Shown here in pieces: positions 2,981 to 15,871 of a stretch of 28,475 nucleotides of DNA (the first letter of the stretch is position 1; every line of letters starts with the position of its first letter). Position numbers and translations under genes: made by a program. Source of the DNA: a virus. A model generated the notes under the pieces. It made no database searches, had not been told where the DNA came from, and worked only from the letters and a program-made list of their open reading frames with translations. The stretch lies in the IMG/VR virus record IMGVR_UViG_3300011115_000610, positions 1 to 28,475 of that record. One strand, written 5' to 3'.

Positions 2981-4730
2981 ATACGCCAATCCTCTTGAGG
3001 TAGTCAGAAACATTGCGCCCAACAGCCACCTCTTCAGGGGTCTTGTCTTCAATGGCGCGCGAGACTGCACGGCTAATTCTCATAGCGGTCAAGCGAGGCT
3101 GGAGTTGCTCGGCATAGGCAGCAGCCGCCAGAGCAGAGGCGATGACTCTATCGTCCTTGTTGCGACCAGAGGCAGCGATACCTCCTCCCTCACGGGTAAT
3201 GGTCTTCATCTCTTCTAGGGTGTCCATGTCGTAGACCGCCATCATTCCGCGCTCAAAGTAATCCTTCATGTAGGTCATCATGCGTTCTTTGGTCTGGGTA
3301 GTTGTTAGCCAGCCAATAGAGTTGGACATTCCACCCATCGTGTCGTTGCGTCTCCAGATGTAGTTGGACATTGAACCGTAGACATCCATCAGTTGCCGAC
3401 CAATCTCGCCAGCCATAGCAGCCGCTTGGCGTTTCAAGTTCTTGAGTTCATTGATGACCGCTTGCCCTGGTCCATTGACTTCCAGGTTAAGCGTTGAGTT
3501 TTTGTATGCGCCAGCAAGGTGGGCAATCACCCAAGCAAACTGGTAGGTGTTGAGTTCAGATGTTGCAAAGGCAGCTACTTGCTCCATGCCGTCCGAGTAG
3601 CAACGATAGACTTGAATACAGAAGCGGTCAGCCCAGTCACTTGACCCATAAGCAGGGTCAGCACCAATGACGTAGTAGGCGGTGTCTACAGGCTCTTCCC
3701 AGACCTTTAGCGTAGCCAAGCGCTCAGTTGACTTGACTACTTGGGTATCTTGGAAGTTTGCGCCAAAGACATAGCGGTAGTTATCAAAGGAGAGCTTCTT
3801 AGAAATCTTGGCTGCATCTGTGCAACGTGCAATAGAGAAGAAGCTAGTGCCAGTCATCACAAAGGCATAGTCCTCAGTCGGTGGGAACTCTTGGTACATC
3901 AAGGATTCGTCTTTGATACCTTCGAGCATCTTCCAACGCCACCAAGCCATTTGTCTTGAGTTGACTTCAAAGTTGTAGAGCTTCTTGATGTCTCTAGTCC
4001 ACTCTTTCTCTTCGGTGGTAAGTTTGCCGTCCCAATAGACTTTGTAGATGTCTGAGTCTGGGTCAGCAGAGTAGAACTCATTGCGCCACCATCCACAGAA
4101 AATTGCCTTCTGGGTTCTAGCCCGTTTAGCCGTGACATACATCTCATGGAACATATTGAAGCCACGGGCAGTAGATTCAAAAATGTAGAGTCTCTCAGGG
4201 TTAGTCTCAGCAAGAGAGGCTAGTAGGGAAGCCAGACCTTCCTCGTCACCCCAAGAAGATGTTTCTGTGCCGTGAAGAAATGTGATGCCTTTACCGCGTC
4301 CGAGAGAACCCTTGGCTCTAAGTCCCGCGACTTGGTAGAAGATGCGACTTCTGTTTTTGAGGGACAGAGAGTTTCTGTTGTGGGCAAGCATGGGGATTTT
4401 GTACTCTTTGGGGAGTCCATCCATGTATGCACCGAGAGTTCCTCTGAACATATCTCGGTTTTCTTCGGTGTCTGTAACAAGTGTGCCTCCAAGACCAGCG
4501 TTAGTGAAATGCCAATAAAGGTCAAGGGCTAGGCTTATTGTGGTAATCCCTAACTGTCTACCCTTCAAAATAACAAAGAAGTGAACCCCGTTAGCCAAGC
4601 CAGAGTTAATCTCTTCCATGACATAGGTCTGTGTTCCAAGGAGATGGTCCATGTTTCTAAGACCTTGCTCCTTAGTCTCAATTTTAAGTTGAGCGCAGAA
4701 CTTGTAGAACTGCTGAAGGTTAAATTTCAT
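2970..4730 (-). CDS. terL: Terminase large subunit
   Basis: A 586-residue packaging motor ATPase/nuclease. Visible motifs: a Walker A variant K-GRQLGITT (residues about 56-64), a following beta strand ending TDTEENRD, the ATPase block around FLHGTETSSWGDEE, and an RNase H-like nuclease with VIGADPAYG in strand 1 and a late acidic pair DDRVIASALAA near residue 540. It cuts concatemers and drives DNA through the portal. Start: ATG 4730 overlaps the upstream glycosyltransferase stop as ATGA; a TTG four codons earlier is less likely. Length is normal for terL. Confidence 0.93.
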   Translation of the reverse strand: MKFNLQQFYKFCAQLKIETKEQGLRNMDHLLGTQTYVMEEINSGLANGVHFFVILKGRQLGITTISLALDLYWHFTNAGLGGTLVTDTEENRDMFRGTLGAYMDGLPKEYKIPMLAHNRNSLSLKNRSRIFYQVAGLRAKGSLGRGKGITFLHGTETSSWGDEEGLASLLASLAETNPERLYIFESTARGFNMFHEMYVTAKRARTQKAIFCGWWRNEFYSADPDSDIYKVYWDGKLTTEEKEWTRDIKKLYNFEVNSRQMAWWRWKMLEGIKDESLMYQEFPPTEDYAFVMTGTSFFSIARCTDAAKISKKLSFDNYRYVFGANFQDTQVVKSTERLATLKVWEEPVDTAYYVIGADPAYGSSDWADRFCIQVYRCYSDGMEQVAAFATSELNTYQFAWVIAHLAGAYKNSTLNLEVNGPGQAVINELKNLKRQAAAMAGEIGRQLMDVYGSMSNYIWRRNDTMGGMSNSIGWLTTTQTKERMMTYMKDYFERGMMAVYDMDTLEEMKTITREGGGIAASGRNKDDRVIASALAAAAYAEQLQPRLTAMRISRAVSRAIEDKTPEEVAVGRNVSDYLKRIGVYGQ

Positions 4731-9444: not shown

Positions 9445-10161
9445 ATGAAGTTCTATGTCGGTATGCATATGCCTAGCAAGGCAGACAAGATAGACAGAGC
9501 GTTTATCTCGGTCAATGTTCTTGCCAAGCGTAAGTCATCATTCCCCGTAAACGAATGGATTATGGATAGCGGTGCGTTCACAACGATTGCCAAGCATGGC
9601 TGCTACCCCGAACCCGTGAGCGTCTATGCCGAGCAGATACGCAAGTGGAAAGGCAACGGCAAACTGGTTGCAGCCGTGTCCCAAGACTATATGTGTGAAG
9701 ACCATATGCTTGCCAAAACAGGGCTTAATGTGCGCCAGCATCAATTCCTAACCATAGAGCGTTACGACCAGCTACTAGCGGAAGATACAGGGGTCTACAT
9801 CATGCCAGTACTACAAGGCTATACGCCTCAGAGTTATGTTGACCATGTGCGGATGTATGGGGACAGACTGGCTCATGGGGCTTATGTAGGGGTTGGCAGC
9901 GTTTGCAAGAGAAACGCCAGCCCAAGCAGCATTGTCCAAGTTCTAAAGGCTATCAAGAAAGAACGCCCAGACTTAAGACTTCATGGCTTTGGCATTAAGA
10001 CTACGGCTCTCAGGTGGGAAGAAGTGAGGGACAACCTCGAATCTGCTGACAGCATGGCTTGGAGTTTTGCAGCCCGTATGGAAAAAAAAACTCTAATGAC
10101 TGGCGAGAAGCCGTTAAGTTCCAAAACAAAATTAACGCCCAATCTGTCCAACTTACACTAA
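9445..10161 (+). CDS. dpdA: DpdA-type 7-deazaguanine DNA transglycosylase (frame change near 3' end)
   Basis: A 238-residue homologue of tRNA-guanine transglycosylase of the phage DpdA type, which swaps guanine in DNA for a 7-deazaguanine base. Core motifs in order: MDSGAFT (D41), VAAVSQDYMCE (D81), PVLQGYTPQ, the GVGSVCKRN phosphate-binding loop at about 149-157, HGFGIK and SADSMAWSF (D202, in the nucleophile region). Phage DpdA modification protects DNA from host restriction. After residue 212 a run of nine A occurs. The zero frame ends in an unlikely tail (MTGEKPLSSKTKLTPN), while the -1 frame, ending at 10166, continues as NSNDWREAVKFQNKINAQ, which fits the family. ATG 9445 has AAGGA upstream. 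No queC/D/E or folE-like gene is in the window. Confidence 0.82.
   Translation: MKFYVGMHMPSKADKIDRAFISVNVLAKRKSSFPVNEWIMDSGAFTTIAKHGCYPEPVSVYAEQIRKWKGNGKLVAAVSQDYMCEDHMLAKTGLNVRQHQFLTIERYDQLLAEDTGVYIMPVLQGYTPQSYVDHVRMYGDRLAHGAYVGVGSVCKRNASPSSIVQVLKAIKKERPDLRLHGFGIKTTALRWEEVRDNLESADSMAWSFAARMEKKTLMTGEKPLSSKTKLTPNLSNLH
10082..10091 (+). other. A9 run: probable -1 slippage site or indel in dpdA
   Basis: Bases 10082-10090 are nine A, read GAA AAA AAA ACT in the zero frame, so A-AAA-AAA is a slippery heptamer. A step back of one base gives AAC TCT AAT GAC TGG, opening a family-like C-terminus to a TAA at 10164-10166. The zero-frame stop is at 10159-10161. A tenth A in the real genome would have the same effect. 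Confidence 0.65.
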
Positions 10162-10215
10162 TTTAAATTTTCTGATATGATTCGCACCGTTGCCGTCGTA
10201 CGCAATATCAATCAG

Positions 10216-10286
10216 TCCACTTATGAGACTTCCCTCCCTATTATTTTTAGGGGTACGACAGGGGAGTCCCCTAAGTGGATTTTTTT
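10216..10286 (+). terminator. Long structured rho-independent terminator after dpdA
   Basis: TCCACTTA (10216-10223) pairs with TAAGTGGA (10272-10279). After a 3x3 internal loop, GACTTCCCT (10227-10235) pairs with AGGGGAGTC (10260-10268; one G-T pair). The base of the stem runs straight into seven T (10280-10286). It terminates the operon that ends with dpdA. The extended two-part stem is longer than most intrinsic terminators. Confidence 0.85.
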
Positions 10287-10546
10287 ATGCCCGTACTACG
10301 TCAACCGTACCCCTCACGATAGCAAGCACCTACATGGGTGGCGAGGGAGAGAACATAGGGCAGCGCATCACCCCGTTGATAACCCTACCGAACTGTGTGC
10401 GAGGTATCGGGCAAGACGCAAGGACATGGTGAGACAAGACTTGCATCGAATGAATCGCATCCTTATGGGGAAGCTAGTGCATACGCATGGGCTTGGGGGA
10501 GATGCTTCTCACCCTTGGGGAACTATTGTCTAAATGAAAGGGATAT
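10287..10546 (+). other. Unresolved 260-base segment, no convincing gene
   Basis: Between the dpdA terminator and the next good gene, three frames are partly open. One (stop 10533) reads through the terminator hairpin and gives a His/Arg-rich protein (DLHRMNRILMGKLVHTHGLG). Another (stop 10432) gives GGEGENIGQRITPLITLPN. Neither has a good ribosome site or a recognised domain. It may be a decayed gene with a frame change near 10430, or a promoter/leader region for the operon starting at 10547. Confidence 0.35.
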
Positions 10547-11076: not shown

Positions 11077-11377
11077 GCTACAAGACTCTCTTGTTCGCAA
11101 GATTCAAGAGAACAGAGAACTCAAAGACACCATCAAAGACTTACACGCTCAAGCAGAGAAAGACAAAGAGTTTCTCAGACAAGTGCAAGATGAATCCAGT
11201 AACCTCGAACTAGCTCTCAAGAAGTGCATCTTGTCTAAGGCTGAACTCAACGACAAGATTGAGCAGTTGCAAGACGATTTAGACAAGTATGTTGAGCTGT
11301 ACGCAAGCACCAAGATAGTAGCCCAAGCACTCGGTGAAGCAGTTTATTACCTGACTAAGGAGAAAACTCATGGCTAA
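11066..11377 (+). CDS. Coiled-coil protein, 103 aa
   Basis: ATG 11066 overlaps the previous stop by 11 bases and has GAGGAG upstream at about 8 bases. Residues about 10-78 form a strong heptad-type helix (RKIQENRELKDTIKDLHAQA ... KAELNDKIEQLQDDLDKYVE). The end (QALGEAVYYLTKEK) is a second helix. No enzymatic motif. Position directly before the YqaJ exonuclease (8-base overlap) suggests an accessory role in recombination, not proven. Confidence 0.7.
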   Translation: MATKLQDSLVRKIQENRELKDTIKDLHAQAEKDKEFLRQVQDESSNLELALKKCILSKAELNDKIEQLQDDLDKYVELYASTKIVAQALGEAVYYLTKEKTHG

Positions 11378-12275
11378 TGATAGAAACGACTTTGCACCAG
11401 AGATACGCAATAGCGCTTGGTGGTCAGGCGATAGCCGTATGGCAGCCAATGGGCGTGGTAATGATGCAGTCCTTGAGAAGCTAGGGGTTAAGGAACGCCC
11501 CGACTTGTCAGAGGTTGAAGCAGTCCAAATGGGTCATGTGATGCAACCCCTTATTGGCAGACTCGCTCAAGACAAACTTGGCATTGAATTGAAGGAAGCA
11601 GACTATGCGCTCACTCACCCTAAAGAGACATGGTTACGCAGCCATTTCGACTTCATCTCGACTGACGGGCAAACGCTTGTGGAAGTCAAGAACTACAACG
11701 CTAGCGTACGCAACAAGTTCGATAGTGAAGCCAACATCATCCCTACGGCTGATATGGCGCAACTCATCCATGAGGCGGCTTGCCACAATATCAACGACAT
11801 TGTGCTGGCTGTTTTATTCGGTGGACAAAACTTTGAAGTGTTTAAGTTCACCATCGAGGAAGCTCAGAAAGAGGAACTCATCCGCGATATGGCGAAGTTC
11901 TGGGCGCACGTTGCGTCTAAGCAGTTGCCAGAACCTGAGACTACCGAACAAGCGAAGCTAATCTACTCTGTCTCCGCACCGACAAGCATCACCGCGCCTC
12001 AGTCCCTAGAGCAGATGTGTCAAGCCTTGCAATACACCAAGGAACAGCTCTCTAAGTGGGAAGCAGAGGAAGAGAAGCTCAAGGTGGAAATACAGAAATT
12101 TATGGGGGTCAACAGCGAATTGGTAACCCTAGACGGCAGAGTCCTAGCCACTTGGAAGAGCGCCAAGGGCAGCATGAAGTTTGATGCCAAACTGTTTGAG
12201 CAGTCTATGCCAGATGTCTACAAGTCCTATGTTCGGGAAGTAGCTGGTAGCCGTAGATTCTTAGTGAAAGGGTAA
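11370..12275 (+). CDS. YqaJ/lambda-type exonuclease (viral recombinase)
   Basis: A 301-residue 5'-3' dsDNA exonuclease of the PD-(D/E)XK fold. The N-terminus NSAWWSGDSRMAANGRGND resembles the YqaJ domain's RxxxIGGSD segment; catalytic residues seen are the conserved E51/Q53 region (VEAVQMGHVMQP), D94 in HFDF and the E105-V-K107 pair (LVEVKNYN). The last 90 residues are helical (LSKWEAEEEKLKVEIQKFMG) as in other phage copies. It resects ends to give 3' single strands for RecT annealing. It is the first enzyme of the recombination set here. Confidence 0.88.
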   Translation: MANDRNDFAPEIRNSAWWSGDSRMAANGRGNDAVLEKLGVKERPDLSEVEAVQMGHVMQPLIGRLAQDKLGIELKEADYALTHPKETWLRSHFDFISTDGQTLVEVKNYNASVRNKFDSEANIIPTADMAQLIHEAACHNINDIVLAVLFGGQNFEVFKFTIEEAQKEELIRDMAKFWAHVASKQLPEPETTEQAKLIYSVSAPTSITAPQSLEQMCQALQYTKEQLSKWEAEEEKLKVEIQKFMGVNSELVTLDGRVLATWKSAKGSMKFDAKLFEQSMPDVYKSYVREVAGSRRFLVKG

Positions 12276-12277
12276 TC

Positions 12278-12460
12278 ATGTTGCTATTTAAAACAAAACG
12301 ATTAGAGCGCCTAGAGCAAGAAGTTGTCATGCTTGAAGACTTGTTTCGTAGCGCTCTTAGACGCATAGCCAATCTAGAAGAGGCTCGGTGGGGTCTGAAG
12401 GTTGACGGTACACCAAAGGCAAAGCCCGGAAGGAAGGTCAAAGATGAACGCATTTCCTAG
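12278..12460 (+). CDS. Small coiled-coil protein with basic tail, 60 aa
   Basis: ATG 12278 with AAAGGG at about 6 bases, 2 bases after the exonuclease stop. Residues 6-38 form a heptad helix (RLERLEQEVVMLEDLFRSAL then RRIANLEEA), and the end (GTPKAKPGRKVKDERIS) is basic and AT-hook-like (KPGRK). It overlaps the next gene by 17 bases. No family name known; DNA binding is inferred only from the tail. Confidence 0.65.
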   Translation: MLLFKTKRLERLEQEVVMLEDLFRSALRRIANLEEARWGLKVDGTPKAKPGRKVKDERIS

Positions 12461-12635
12461 TGGACACGACCCTAAAACTGGGGTAGCCGACAAAGGCATG
12501 AAGATGCGCGATTACTTTGCAGCCAAGGCTTTGCAAGGGATGCTTGCCGAACCATCACTCAAAGCAACTCCAGAAGAGTTTGCTCAAAGGGCTTACATGG
12601 TGGCAGATGCAATGTTGAAAGCGAGGGACTTGTGA
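12444..12635 (+). CDS. Conserved small phage protein, 63 aa
   Basis: ATG 12444 with AAGGAAGG upstream at about 8 bases. The core GMKMRDYFAAKALQGMLAEP and the later AYMVADAMLKARDL follow the pattern of a widespread phage protein (GxxMRDYFAAxALxG...AYxxADAML.AR) of unknown function, often located near recombination or nucleotide genes. The stop overlaps a GTG start as GTGA, linking it to the 28-residue frame before recT. Confidence 0.8.
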   Translation: MNAFPSGHDPKTGVADKGMKMRDYFAAKALQGMLAEPSLKATPEEFAQRAYMVADAMLKARDL

Positions 12636-12718
12636 CCACGCAAGATGTCGCAATATATGTAATGGCTGCATCCTCAGTCATAGAAACATTCCTAACTATT
12701 TTGGAGAAATTCACATGA
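12632..12718 (+). CDS. 28-residue peptide bridging to recT
   Basis: A GTG at 12632 overlaps the previous stop as GTGA, and the frame ends overlapping the recT start as ATGA, so the frame exactly fills the gap. The product is a helical, weakly hydrophobic peptide (MTTQDVAIYVMAASSVIETF then LTILEKFT). GAGGGA sits 3-8 bases upstream of the GTG. It may serve as a leader that carries ribosomes to recT or be a true micropeptide. Confidence 0.5.
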   Translation: MTTQDVAIYVMAASSVIETFLTILEKFT

Positions 12719-13566
12719 GTAACATCATCCCTGTATCAGACATGACGGTCATGGCTGACAGTATCGTCAAGTCAGGCTTCTATGGCTTTAAGACTAAAGA
12801 GCAAGTCATGGCTGTAATGCTTGTAGCCCAAGCAGAAAACAAGCACCCCGCCTCTGTCGTGCAAGAGTACGACATCATCCAAGGCAAGCCAGCTCTGAAG
12901 TCTCAAGCTATCCTCGCCCGTTTCCAACTCTCTGGTGGCTCAGTCCAATGGGATGTAGTCACGCCCAAGGCAGTCAAGGGAACATTCAAGCACCCACAAG
13001 GCGGTACTCTTACCGTTGAATGGACTATCGAAATGGCAAGGCAAGCCGGTATCTACCGCGAGGGTTCAGGATGGTCTAAGTATCCTGAAGATATGCTCAG
13101 AGCTAGGGTTATCTCTAGGGCTGTGCGTTCTATCTATCCGGCTTGTATCTTGGGACACTACGCAACAGAAGAGGTCATGGACTTTGATAGCCCTATGCCT
13201 AAACACATGGGCGTTGTAGAAGACGTTAAACAGCCCATAGAGGTCATAGAAACGCCCAAGAGTGACTACCCCATCATCAAGCCCGATGGCGAGGTATACG
13301 CCTTTTATGAGTCTCCAGAGGAATGGATTGAAGCCTACGCTGAATTGGCTGGCAAAGTCATGCAGTCAACCAGACTAAATGATGACGAGAGAACTCAGAA
13401 GATTGCTGCTTTTGCTGAAGCGAATCAGGGGATAACCGAGAAGTTCAACAGTTTTGACAAAATCAAGATTCGCGGTGAGCTTGCCAAGGTGGGAGTAAAC
13501 CAACACCCAAAGTCACCAGCGTCCCAGTTCGTAGCCGACATGGAAGCCAACGAGAAAATATTTTGA
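12715..13566 (+). CDS. recT: RecT-family single-strand annealing protein
   Basis: A 283-residue annealase. Family-like segments: YGFKTKEQVMAVMLVAQAEN and HPASVVQEYDIIQGKPALK near the N-terminus (the QEYDIIQGKPAL strand is typical), FQLSGGSVQW, then GWSKYPEDMLRARVISRAVR (the conserved W..P..ML..R..SRA.R motif), and PACILGHYATEEVMD. It anneals the 3' single strands left by the YqaJ exonuclease for phage recombination and concatemer formation. ATG 12715 has GGAG at about 8 bases and overlaps the 28-residue peptide as ATGA. The C-terminal 110 residues are family-variable. Confidence 0.88.
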   Translation: MSNIIPVSDMTVMADSIVKSGFYGFKTKEQVMAVMLVAQAENKHPASVVQEYDIIQGKPALKSQAILARFQLSGGSVQWDVVTPKAVKGTFKHPQGGTLTVEWTIEMARQAGIYREGSGWSKYPEDMLRARVISRAVRSIYPACILGHYATEEVMDFDSPMPKHMGVVEDVKQPIEVIETPKSDYPIIKPDGEVYAFYESPEEWIEAYAELAGKVMQSTRLNDDERTQKIAAFAEANQGITEKFNSFDKIKIRGELAKVGVNQHPKSPASQFVADMEANEKIF

Positions 13567-13733
13567 AGCATCTTCAGAATATAGGCTCACTAACTCCAAT
13601 GGACGCATTAAATAACTATGGCTCATTCAGGCTTGCAGCCCATATCGAATATCTTAGGAAGCAAGGACATCCAATCCTTACAACTATGGTTAAAGAGGGT
13701 GGGCGCGAGTATGCCCGATATATCTACCGTTGA
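13563..13733 (+). CDS. Small HTH protein (HTH_39-like), 56 aa
   Basis: TTG at 13563 overlaps the recT stop as TTGA; an ATG at 13599 would cut into the domain. The 56 residues contain LTPMDALNNYGSFRLAAHIE then YLRKQGHPILTTMVKEG, matching the small phage helix-turn-helix type whose core reads 'T..eAL...G..RLAArI..LR..Gh.I.t..V...G...ArY'. Such proteins occur in phage early regions and may bind DNA. It is too short for standard length cut-offs. AAAGG after its stop serves the next gene. Confidence 0.8.
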   Translation: MKHLQNIGSLTPMDALNNYGSFRLAAHIEYLRKQGHPILTTMVKEGGREYARYIYR

Positions 13734-13743
13734 AAGGAAAATC

Positions 13744-14031
13744 ATGGAAAACCAAAAGAAAGCCCCGTTCGTACCCCTAGAGATGAAAGGGCGTATGACA
13801 AAGAACACCTACAAAAAACAGGGTTCTACTGAGCCAGACTGGAAAGGCACATTCATGTACAAGGGTGAAACTATTACCTTTGGTGCATGGGAGAACGATG
13901 CTGGCTATGGACCTTACTACAACATCAAATTGAACGACCCTAACTGGAACAAACAACAGCAGCAGTACCCTAAAGAGGTAACTGACAAACCGGCTAAGTC
14001 TTATCCTAAAGATAGTGACGTTCCATTTTGA
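13744..14031 (+). CDS. SSB-like protein with acidic DSDVPF tail, 95 aa
   Basis: I choose ATG 13744, with AAAGGAAA at about 6 bases; an upstream ATG at 13618 would run through the HTH gene. The 95-residue protein has a small beta-rich core (WKGTFMYKGETITFGAW and GYGPYYNIKLND), as in the short OB-fold-like phage proteins with 'DYxGxxxxxGxxYxxxAW', then a Gln/Lys/Pro linker and an ending DSDVPF. That end mimics the DDDIPF tip by which bacterial SSB recruits partner proteins. Probably binds single-stranded DNA beside RecT. It overlaps RusA as TTGA. Confidence 0.7.
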   Translation: MENQKKAPFVPLEMKGRMTKNTYKKQGSTEPDWKGTFMYKGETITFGAWENDAGYGPYYNIKLNDPNWNKQQQQYPKEVTDKPAKSYPKDSDVPF

Positions 14032-14417
14032 CAGCTAGTTTCTCTCTCCCGTTTCCCCCTAGCGTTAACACCTATTACCGTAACTTTCGCGGTCACATGG
14101 TGATGAGCGCCAAGGGAAGGGAGTTTAGAGAAGCTGTCCAAGTCTTTGTAATTGAAAACAACATTCCTAAGTTTGGGGATAAAAAATTGAAACTAACACT
14201 AATTCTGCGTCCTAGAGACAAGAGAAAAATAGACATCGACAACCGTATCAAAGCGGTACTTGATGCACTAGAACACGCTGGAGTGTTTGACAACGACTTC
14301 CAGGTGGACCACATTGAGATGATTCGAGGAGAACAAATCAAGGGCGGTCTGCTTCATGTAGTCATAGAAGAAATGTCCCCCCGGCATCCCGAAGTCGAGT
14401 CCCTAGAGGACAGTTAG
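14028..14417 (+). CDS. rusA: RusA-type Holliday junction resolvase
   Basis: A 129-residue resolvase. SLPFPPSVNTYYRNFRGHMV is the typical start (P-P-S-x-N-x-Y-R) and KRKIDIDNRIKAVLDALEHA with VFDND carries the acidic metal residues (D69, D71, then D88 and D90). It cuts four-way junctions and clears branched DNA before packaging. Initiation is at TTG 14028, overlapping the SSB-like stop as TTGA. The last 15 residues (SPRHPEVESLEDS) extend beyond the domain. It closes the recombination cluster. Confidence 0.93.
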   Translation: MTASFSLPFPPSVNTYYRNFRGHMVMSAKGREFREAVQVFVIENNIPKFGDKKLKLTLILRPRDKRKIDIDNRIKAVLDALEHAGVFDNDFQVDHIEMIRGEQIKGGLLHVVIEEMSPRHPEVESLEDS

Positions 14418-14480: not shown

Positions 14481-15299
14481 ATGCCAAAGAAGAAACAAGT
14501 AGAAACCGTTGACATCCCATTTGTGGGAACAATGGAACTCCCACCAGAAGAGAAAAAGAAGAACCATATCTTTATTGCCACGCCTATGTATGGCGGTCAA
14601 TGCTATGGCTTCTATGTGCAGTCAGTCATGCAATTGCAGAAAATGGCTTCCGGTCAAAACATAGATGTCAGCTTCTCATTCATGTTCAATGAGTCTTTGA
14701 TAACTAGAGCGCGTAACGCAATGGCGCACAACTTCCTCAAGATGGAAGCAGCCACCCACCTACTCTTCATTGACTCAGATATTAAGTTCCAACCAGAGCA
14801 TATCTTCCCAATGCTAGAAGCCGACAAGGAAATCATTTGTGGCATCTATCCTAAGAAGGAAGTTAACTGGACTAGCGTCAAACAAGCTATGGACAACAAG
14901 GTAGATACAGACAAGCTCAAGTTCTACACAGGCGCGTTTGTGGTTAACCTTGTGGACTACTCAGGCTCGGTGACTGTGCCGATTAACCAGCCCGTAGAGA
15001 TATGGAATGGCGGTACAGGGTTTATGCTTATCAAGCGTGAGGTGTTTGAGAAGCTGAAAGACAAAGTGCCGACCTATACAAACAATGTGGTTGACCTTGC
15101 TAACACTCTCAAAGATGACATGATTAGCGAGTATTTCACGACAAGCATAGAGCGACCTACCAACATCCTTTTGTCTGAGGATTACCACTTCTGTAAGCTG
15201 GCGCGTGAACACGGCATCAAAGTCTGGGCAGCGCCTTGGGTTCAACTCGCTCACATCGGCACATACGCCTTTGAGGGTCAACTAATTCCAGCACCATGA
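14481..15299 (+). CDS. GT-A type glycosyltransferase, 272 aa
   Basis: Residues 30-37 (IFIATPMYG) are the nucleotide-sugar strand and loop; NESLITRARNAMAHNFL and HLLFIDSDIKF (DSD at 98-100) give the metal site. GGTGFMLIKREVFEKL and a late SEDYHFCKLAREHGIKVWAAP (D/H-bearing acceptor region) fit phage family-2-like transferases. The first 28 residues are a charged lead. It probably glycosylates phage DNA, virion or host envelope. It overlaps the methyltransferase as ATGA, so the two are made together. A different enzyme from the GT at 4727-5449 by sequence. Confidence 0.78.
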   Translation: MPKKKQVETVDIPFVGTMELPPEEKKKNHIFIATPMYGGQCYGFYVQSVMQLQKMASGQNIDVSFSFMFNESLITRARNAMAHNFLKMEAATHLLFIDSDIKFQPEHIFPMLEADKEIICGIYPKKEVNWTSVKQAMDNKVDTDKLKFYTGAFVVNLVDYSGSVTVPINQPVEIWNGGTGFMLIKREVFEKLKDKVPTYTNNVVDLANTLKDDMISEYFTTSIERPTNILLSEDYHFCKLAREHGIKVWAAPWVQLAHIGTYAFEGQLIPAP

Positions 15300-15871
15300 A
15301 ATTCACTCAAGATTGGTTTAGCCACAACATCCCGAACTTTGAGTTCTGCATGAGCGCTTTGGAGACAAAGCAAGACTTCCTAGAGATAGGCTGCTTTGAG
15401 GGCAGAGCAAGCGTGTGGATGCTTCAAAATGGTCTTGACCCTGACGGCAAGCTCACTTGCATAGATACATTCCAAGGTAGCGAGGAACACGCTGCTATGG
15501 GATTAAACCTGAACGAACTGCTTGATACTTTCAAACAAAATGTTGAGGAAGGCAAAGTCGCTGACCAAGTGGTTGAGAGCATCCAAGCTACTTCCTACCA
15601 AGGTCTGGCAAAAGTTATCACCCGCGGGGATGAGTTTGACTTTATCTATGTAGATGGAAGTCATACCGCACCTGATGTAATGACTGACGCTTGCATGGCA
15701 TTTGGGCTGCTTAAGAAGGGTGGAATCATGCTGTTTGATGACTACCTATGGAATCATGTGCCGGGCATCCTACACCGCCCTAAACTGGCTGTGGACTTGT
15801 TTGTAACCTTGTTTAGCGAGAAAGCAGAATTGCTAATGCTTGGTTACCAGTTAGCAGTTAGAAAGATTTAA
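15296..15871 (+). CDS. Class I SAM-dependent methyltransferase, 191 aa
   Basis: Rossmann-type motifs: DFLEIGCFEGRASVWML (motif I, residues about 27-43), LTCIDTFQGSEEH (acidic end of strand 2, D57), FDFIYVDGSHTAPDV (motif with YVDGSH, as in Methyltransf_24-like and sugar-modifying enzymes) and GGIMLFDDY. No DNA-methylase catalytic motif (DPPY or PCQ) is seen, so a sugar or small-molecule O-methyltransferase acting with the coupled glycosyltransferase is the best guess. ATG overlaps the GT stop. The stop codon shares bases with the stop of the convergent minus-strand gene. Confidence 0.8.
   Translation: MKFTQDWFSHNIPNFEFCMSALETKQDFLEIGCFEGRASVWMLQNGLDPDGKLTCIDTFQGSEEHAAMGLNLNELLDTFKQNVEEGKVADQVVESIQATSYQGLAKVITRGDEFDFIYVDGSHTAPDVMTDACMAFGLLKKGGIMLFDDYLWNHVPGILHRPKLAVDLFVTLFSEKAELLMLGYQLAVRKI

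Follow-up and report, generated by a model that had tools for sequence, protein, structure and literature searches.

A nine-A run of conserved length that divides a phage dpdA gene between two reading frames and probably serves as a slippage site

Genes that slip on runs of nine A are already known, and the phage dpdA gene described here would add a new member to them. Thermus thermophilus dnaX undergoes transcriptional slippage on A9 (PMC1088944; PMC3711429), slippage of about 20–25% occurs in tssM genes with A11 and A9 (PMC4256274), and in a reporter test frameshifting was 40% with a 9A cassette and 10% with 7A (PMC3711429). Selection against A/T runs is evident from a length of nine in many bacterial genomes, and where homologues keep a 9A run at constant length, transcriptional slippage is very likely its role (PMC1088944). 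The phage gene resembles T. thermophilus dnaX in having nine sense-strand A late in the coding region and predicted products that share their N-terminal part; however, in dnaX it is the frame without slippage that yields the longer product, whereas in dpdA the conserved C-terminus lies in the frame reached by a putative slip. A comparable layout is found in Citrobacter rodentium tssM1 (A11): an A run lies a short way ahead of an early stop, slippage brings back a conserved C-terminus, and the two products coexist. Slippage on A or T runs likewise occurs in Yersinia pseudotuberculosis tssM3 (A9) and in Shigella spa13 and mxiE. These are bacterial secretion-system genes, whereas dpdA encodes a phage DNA-modification enzyme in which only about 25 residues would be restored. 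Similar conserved poly-A frame transitions among homologues define programmed-frameshift clusters found with GeneTack (PMC3711429); the words queuine and ribosyltransferase are absent from the main text of that study. We found no report of DpdA slippage in the papers searched on DpdA and frameshifting: one DpdA paper (PMC8651126) names frameshifting in a reference title only, the others appear unrelated from their titles, and the terms "queuine tRNA-ribosyltransferase", phage, and "programmed frameshift" were not found together. DpdA is believed to guard phage DNA against restriction. Its gene would bring a phage DNA-modification enzyme into the few genes for which conserved poly-A slippage is known.

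The stretch analyzed here in full (the window) is a virus record of 28,475 bases, and locus L001 in IMG/VR, with a length of 28,505 bases, appears to be the same contig (100% identity). The features on which the analysis turns are as follows:

9445–10161, plus strand: dpdA open reading frame in frame 0, 238 aa, with its stop TAA at 10159–10161
10082–10090, plus strand: nine-A slippery run (A9), read directly; frame 0 runs ATG GAA AAA AAA ACT
10089–10166, plus strand: −1-frame C-terminal coding segment, NSNDWREAVKFQNKINAQSVQLTLI and stop, matching the C-termini of in-frame homologues
10091–10161, plus strand: frame-0 tail after the run, ending LMTGEKPLSSKTKLTPNLSNLH and stop; no homologue, disordered in the model, not conserved
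10214–10286, plus strand: hairpin followed by T7, a likely intrinsic terminator after dpdA; MFE −33.2 kcal/mol, z −4.65

The dpdA product matched Pfam PF23859 (DpdA) at 129.5 bits (E = 1.7e-37; curated cut-off 27) and phrog_1279 at E = 1.2e-58, the family domain extending within frame 0 as far as SADSMAWSFAAR. The protein resembles TGTs, and its predicted activity is the replacement of guanine by a 7-deazaguanine in phage DNA. By analogy with TGTs, a possible catalytic nucleophile is the conserved Asp of SADSMAW. The run falls just past SADSMAW at the position of a GR motif, which is KK in the A9 clade. DpdA proteins of the phrog_1279 type from mycobacteriophages, Sinorhizobium phage phiLM21, and Rhizobium phage RHph_TM3_3_3 belong to the same family; those of rhizobial phages share the C-terminal motif ADSMAW-x-x-AAR-x-x-GR-x-x-NDW with the A9 group but, unlike it, are read in one frame and have no A run.

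An earlier note, made from the sequence of this DNA, had described a frame change in dpdA at a run of nine A, and the position proved exact. The C-terminus typical of the family, NSNDWREAVKFQNKI, is encoded in the −1 frame, which continues from EKK into NSNDWREAVKFQNKINAQSVQLTLI and reaches a TAA (10164–10166) five bases past the frame-0 stop; that a −1 step would yield a natural C-terminus ending at this distance, as the note held, is borne out by the sequence and by the homologues. An A_AAA_AAA heptamer at 10083–10089 is in register for −1 slippage, following the pattern X_XXY_YYZ. The strong terminator hairpin that the note had placed further on is also present, very stable and about 50 bases 3′ of the dpdA stop, though a simple consensus terminator scan did not include it among its listings. 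Upstream of the run, the Lys codons of the window dpdA are AAG in 11 cases versus AAA in 4. The run is the only A9 or T9 in the window, and the seven A9-dpdA stretches (the window and six others, 91,389 bases) contain seven such runs, every one at the dpdA codon. By composition, these runs are not rare: A9 or T9 occurred somewhere in 263 of 500 simulated windows, and the simulated chance of an A9 falling in dpdA was about 1.5%. The evidential weight therefore comes from conservation and not from the run alone.

Scanning IMG/VR with the frame-0 DpdA protein recovered 16 loci. Nine of these beyond the window's own contig, at 80–87% amino acid identity and from nine other metagenomes, carry a run of precisely nine A, again 637 bases from the ATG, and encode a SNDWREAVKFQNKI-like C-terminus one frame back (−1); two (L005 and L006) are the same at dpdA, so that the set, counting the window, comprises nine distinct A9 sequences on ten contigs from ten metagenomes. 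Locus L011 (80% identity) has no A run (GAAAAAGGCAACAGTAACGATTGG) and reads in one frame to the same C-terminus, its junction sequence being EKGNSNDWKDAV with the C-terminal motif in frame. A profile search across viral and genome collections extended the comparison to 74 distinct dpdA junctions: nine have A9 with the tail in the −1 frame, and 65 are continuous in one frame. Among the continuous junctions, 21 were marked "?" by the script owing to an NDW substitution only, and their printed reading runs through; another (L142) is continuous at the junction and broken further upstream. The −1 tail is the one that the homologues match; the frame-0 tail has no counterpart among them, in agreement with the earlier note's remark that this tail is unlike any DpdA end.

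The break in L142 (Microcystis phage Mwe-JY25, PP438417) is a frame change at 2085–2105, just before SADSMAW and without a slippery run, and the dpdA match in Mwe-JY07 stops at the same residue, 198. This probably reflects a sequencing indel or a genuine break and seems to have no connection with A9.

A specific DNA scan for at least six A after W-S-F-A-A-R returned 11 contigs, with A9 in ten and A10, in frame, in one (L018); a wider scan for at least six A before CNNNAAYGAYTGG gave, among the matches listed, unrelated genes besides the known ones. The A10 run lies about 90 bases from its contig end, making its length less trustworthy. L018 is a lineage of its own, differing from its nearest A9 relative (L002) at 21 of the 87 bases before the run and at 17 of the 75 after it; its gene order of dpdA, exonuclease, RecT, and SSB is the same as in the window. 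These data bear on the second explanation offered in the earlier note, that one A is missing from the assembly and the true run is ten. Homopolymers are error-prone on some platforms, but an identical length in contigs of ten separate metagenomes, together with the assembly of one relative with A10, leaves this explanation barely credible. They also bear on phase variation, in which replication slippage would toggle the run within a population, A9 encoding the short form and A10 the full-length one. DNA-modification genes are among those known to be phase-variable (PMC3711429), homopolymers are hypermutable, and L018 could represent the full-length state. However, toggling would be expected to leave a spread of lengths, whereas ten of the 11 contigs have A9 and none has A8 or A11, and A9 has persisted through extensive synonymous divergence (see below); we regard phase variation as improbable.

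Substitution patterns after the run follow the −1 frame. Variable columns of the tail, sorted by −1-frame codon position, number 8, 7, and 20 of 24 (chi-square P = 0.011), a coding pattern whose freest position would be the second if numbered in frame 0. Across five lineages, pN/pS is 0.15 upstream in frame 0, 0.25 for the tail in the −1 frame, and 1.84 for the tail in frame 0. The main A9 lineages differ from one another at 52–72% of four-fold synonymous sites (30% within the pair L003/L005 and 39% within L007/L008), pointing to an old clade, and the run is invariant. All three two-fold codons in the run end in A across the A9 lineages, while only one of 16 comparable upstream Lys, Glu, and Gln sites is A-ending throughout the seven sequences in the comparison; multiplying the frequencies gives a rough chance of about 2e-4 for three such invariant codons. 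In a tree built from frame-0 proteins, with the run and tail excluded and L018 too short to be placed, A9 maps as a single change on one branch (support 87/80), and one change is likewise obtained in 88% of bootstrap trees. This distribution fits one origin and a single clade, all nine sequences of which (9/9) have a 9A run of kept length, as in the pattern associated with transcriptional slippage (PMC1088944). The A9 stretches compared have little in common with the window except dpdA; the run thus seems to have been kept with the gene across different genome surroundings. Decay of the gene, in which an ancestor lost one base and left either a pseudogene or an enzyme working without its C-terminus, would produce the same layout from an A10 ancestor, and A10 does exist in L018. 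Yet purifying selection acts both before the run and, in the −1 frame, after it, and none of the nine A9 sequences contains a further stop or frame break before the −1 stop; decay is accordingly very unlikely. As judged from these comparisons of relatives, the frame split in dpdA is maintained by selection.

Structural models point to the same C-terminus. The model of L011 (pLDDT 90), 80% identical to the window's protein, shows a TGT-like barrel fold in which the segment restored by the −1 frame forms a helix (220–232); its top PDB match is 7ui4 (DNA preQ0 insertase DpdA), followed by TGTs, with TMq about 0.6. A sequence search of solved structures with DpdA returned weak matches only (E = 0.8). 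In the model of the window's frame-0 product, residues 206–238 fall under pLDDT 50 and the tail lies at 26–36, although this disorder may partly reflect the lack of homologues in the alignment. The frame-0 stop comes 15 codons earlier in eight of the nine A9 sequences, giving 223 aa as against 238 aa in the window. As the frame-0 tail has neither a homologue nor selection in its frame, we rejected it as the native C-terminus. That neither the tail nor its length is conserved suggests that selection acts on full-length DpdA and that slippage either limits the dose or is an accident that is tolerated.

We therefore favor, with a probability of roughly 0.8, the reading that A9 is a used slippage site whose slipped product is full-length DpdA, made beside a C-terminally altered form. 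Of the two explanations in the earlier note, slippage is upheld by the conservation of the run, the selection in the −1 frame, and the clade structure, and the missing A is not. Most likely, judging from the sequence, production of complete DpdA would require a slip on A9, by either RNA polymerase or the ribosome. Either RNA polymerase would add an extra A to the mRNA, so that translation enters the −1 frame, or the ribosome would slip back one base on A_AAA_AAA; both would yield full-length DpdA (238 aa, EKKNSNDWREAVKFQNKI). Without slippage, the product would keep everything up to SFAAR-x-EKK and lose the conserved NDWREA helix. We infer both the occurrence of slippage and the need for the full-length enzyme.

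Between the two routes, we lean toward transcriptional slippage by an added A over ribosomal −1 slippage, and both may contribute. This preference follows from the lack of a conserved downstream structure or Shine–Dalgarno-like element. Upstream, Shine–Dalgarno-like sequences differ between A9 lineages and none is conserved. Downstream folds across the lineages have z scores from −1.7 to +0.8, with only two invariant pairs in the consensus structure; the best candidate long-range stem shows no compensatory change, and Rfam gave no match. Two stems, a GGC-GAGAA-GCC hairpin in the window and GATTGGC…GCCAATC in L003 and L010, were taken as chance, since their partner registers differ by lineage without compensatory change. 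Ribosomal sites can work without a stimulator, so this absence only makes the ribosomal route less likely. Programmed ribosomal −1 frameshifting as the sole route, which overlaps with the preferred reading, is a tentative alternative: A_AAA_AAA is a known ribosomal site (PMC3711429) and stands in the correct register, and the heptamer with its flanking GAA/CAA and Asn (AAC) codons also yields A9, which counters the argument from run length; against it stands the missing set of conserved elements described above. A further counterpoint to fixed length is the A10 of L018, in which the run of a relative can be seen to vary. Against the transcriptional route, the RNA polymerase of E. coli is more prone to slip on poly(T) than on poly(A) (PMC6260861).

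That A9 fixes the proportion of two DpdA forms, each of them required, such as the full-length enzyme and a C-terminally altered partner in a mixed dimer comparable to the two-subunit TGT of eukaryotes, appears unlikely; if true, slippage would set the amount or place of phage DNA modification. Gene calling in frame 0 alone ends DpdA in the wrong frame, and its true C-terminus is then missing from the annotation. The A9 genes, the A10 relative, and the A-free L011 form a natural set with which to ask whether slippage sets enzyme dose.

The closest terminases to that of the window belong to unclassified phages from Manatee Spring, and the contig sources suggest freshwater as the habitat common to the A9 phages. 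Shortly after dpdA, window positions 10166–10290 resemble positions 3715–3860 of L011, with a short ORF start (MIR..VVRN) and a GGGG-ACGACAGGGG element, although L011 is free of the A run; the sequence after dpdA in the other aligned A9 relatives differs from both. Elsewhere in the window, a GP88-family gene (PF17338; 7045–7803) lies 5′ of dpdA. On the 3′ side, 11370–14417 contains a YqaJ-like exonuclease gene, a RecT-like gene, and a RusA gene, the exonuclease and RecT-like matches both being slightly under their curated cut-offs, and 14481–15871 contains an Anp1-like glycosyltransferase (a weak match) followed by a methyltransferase (PF13578).
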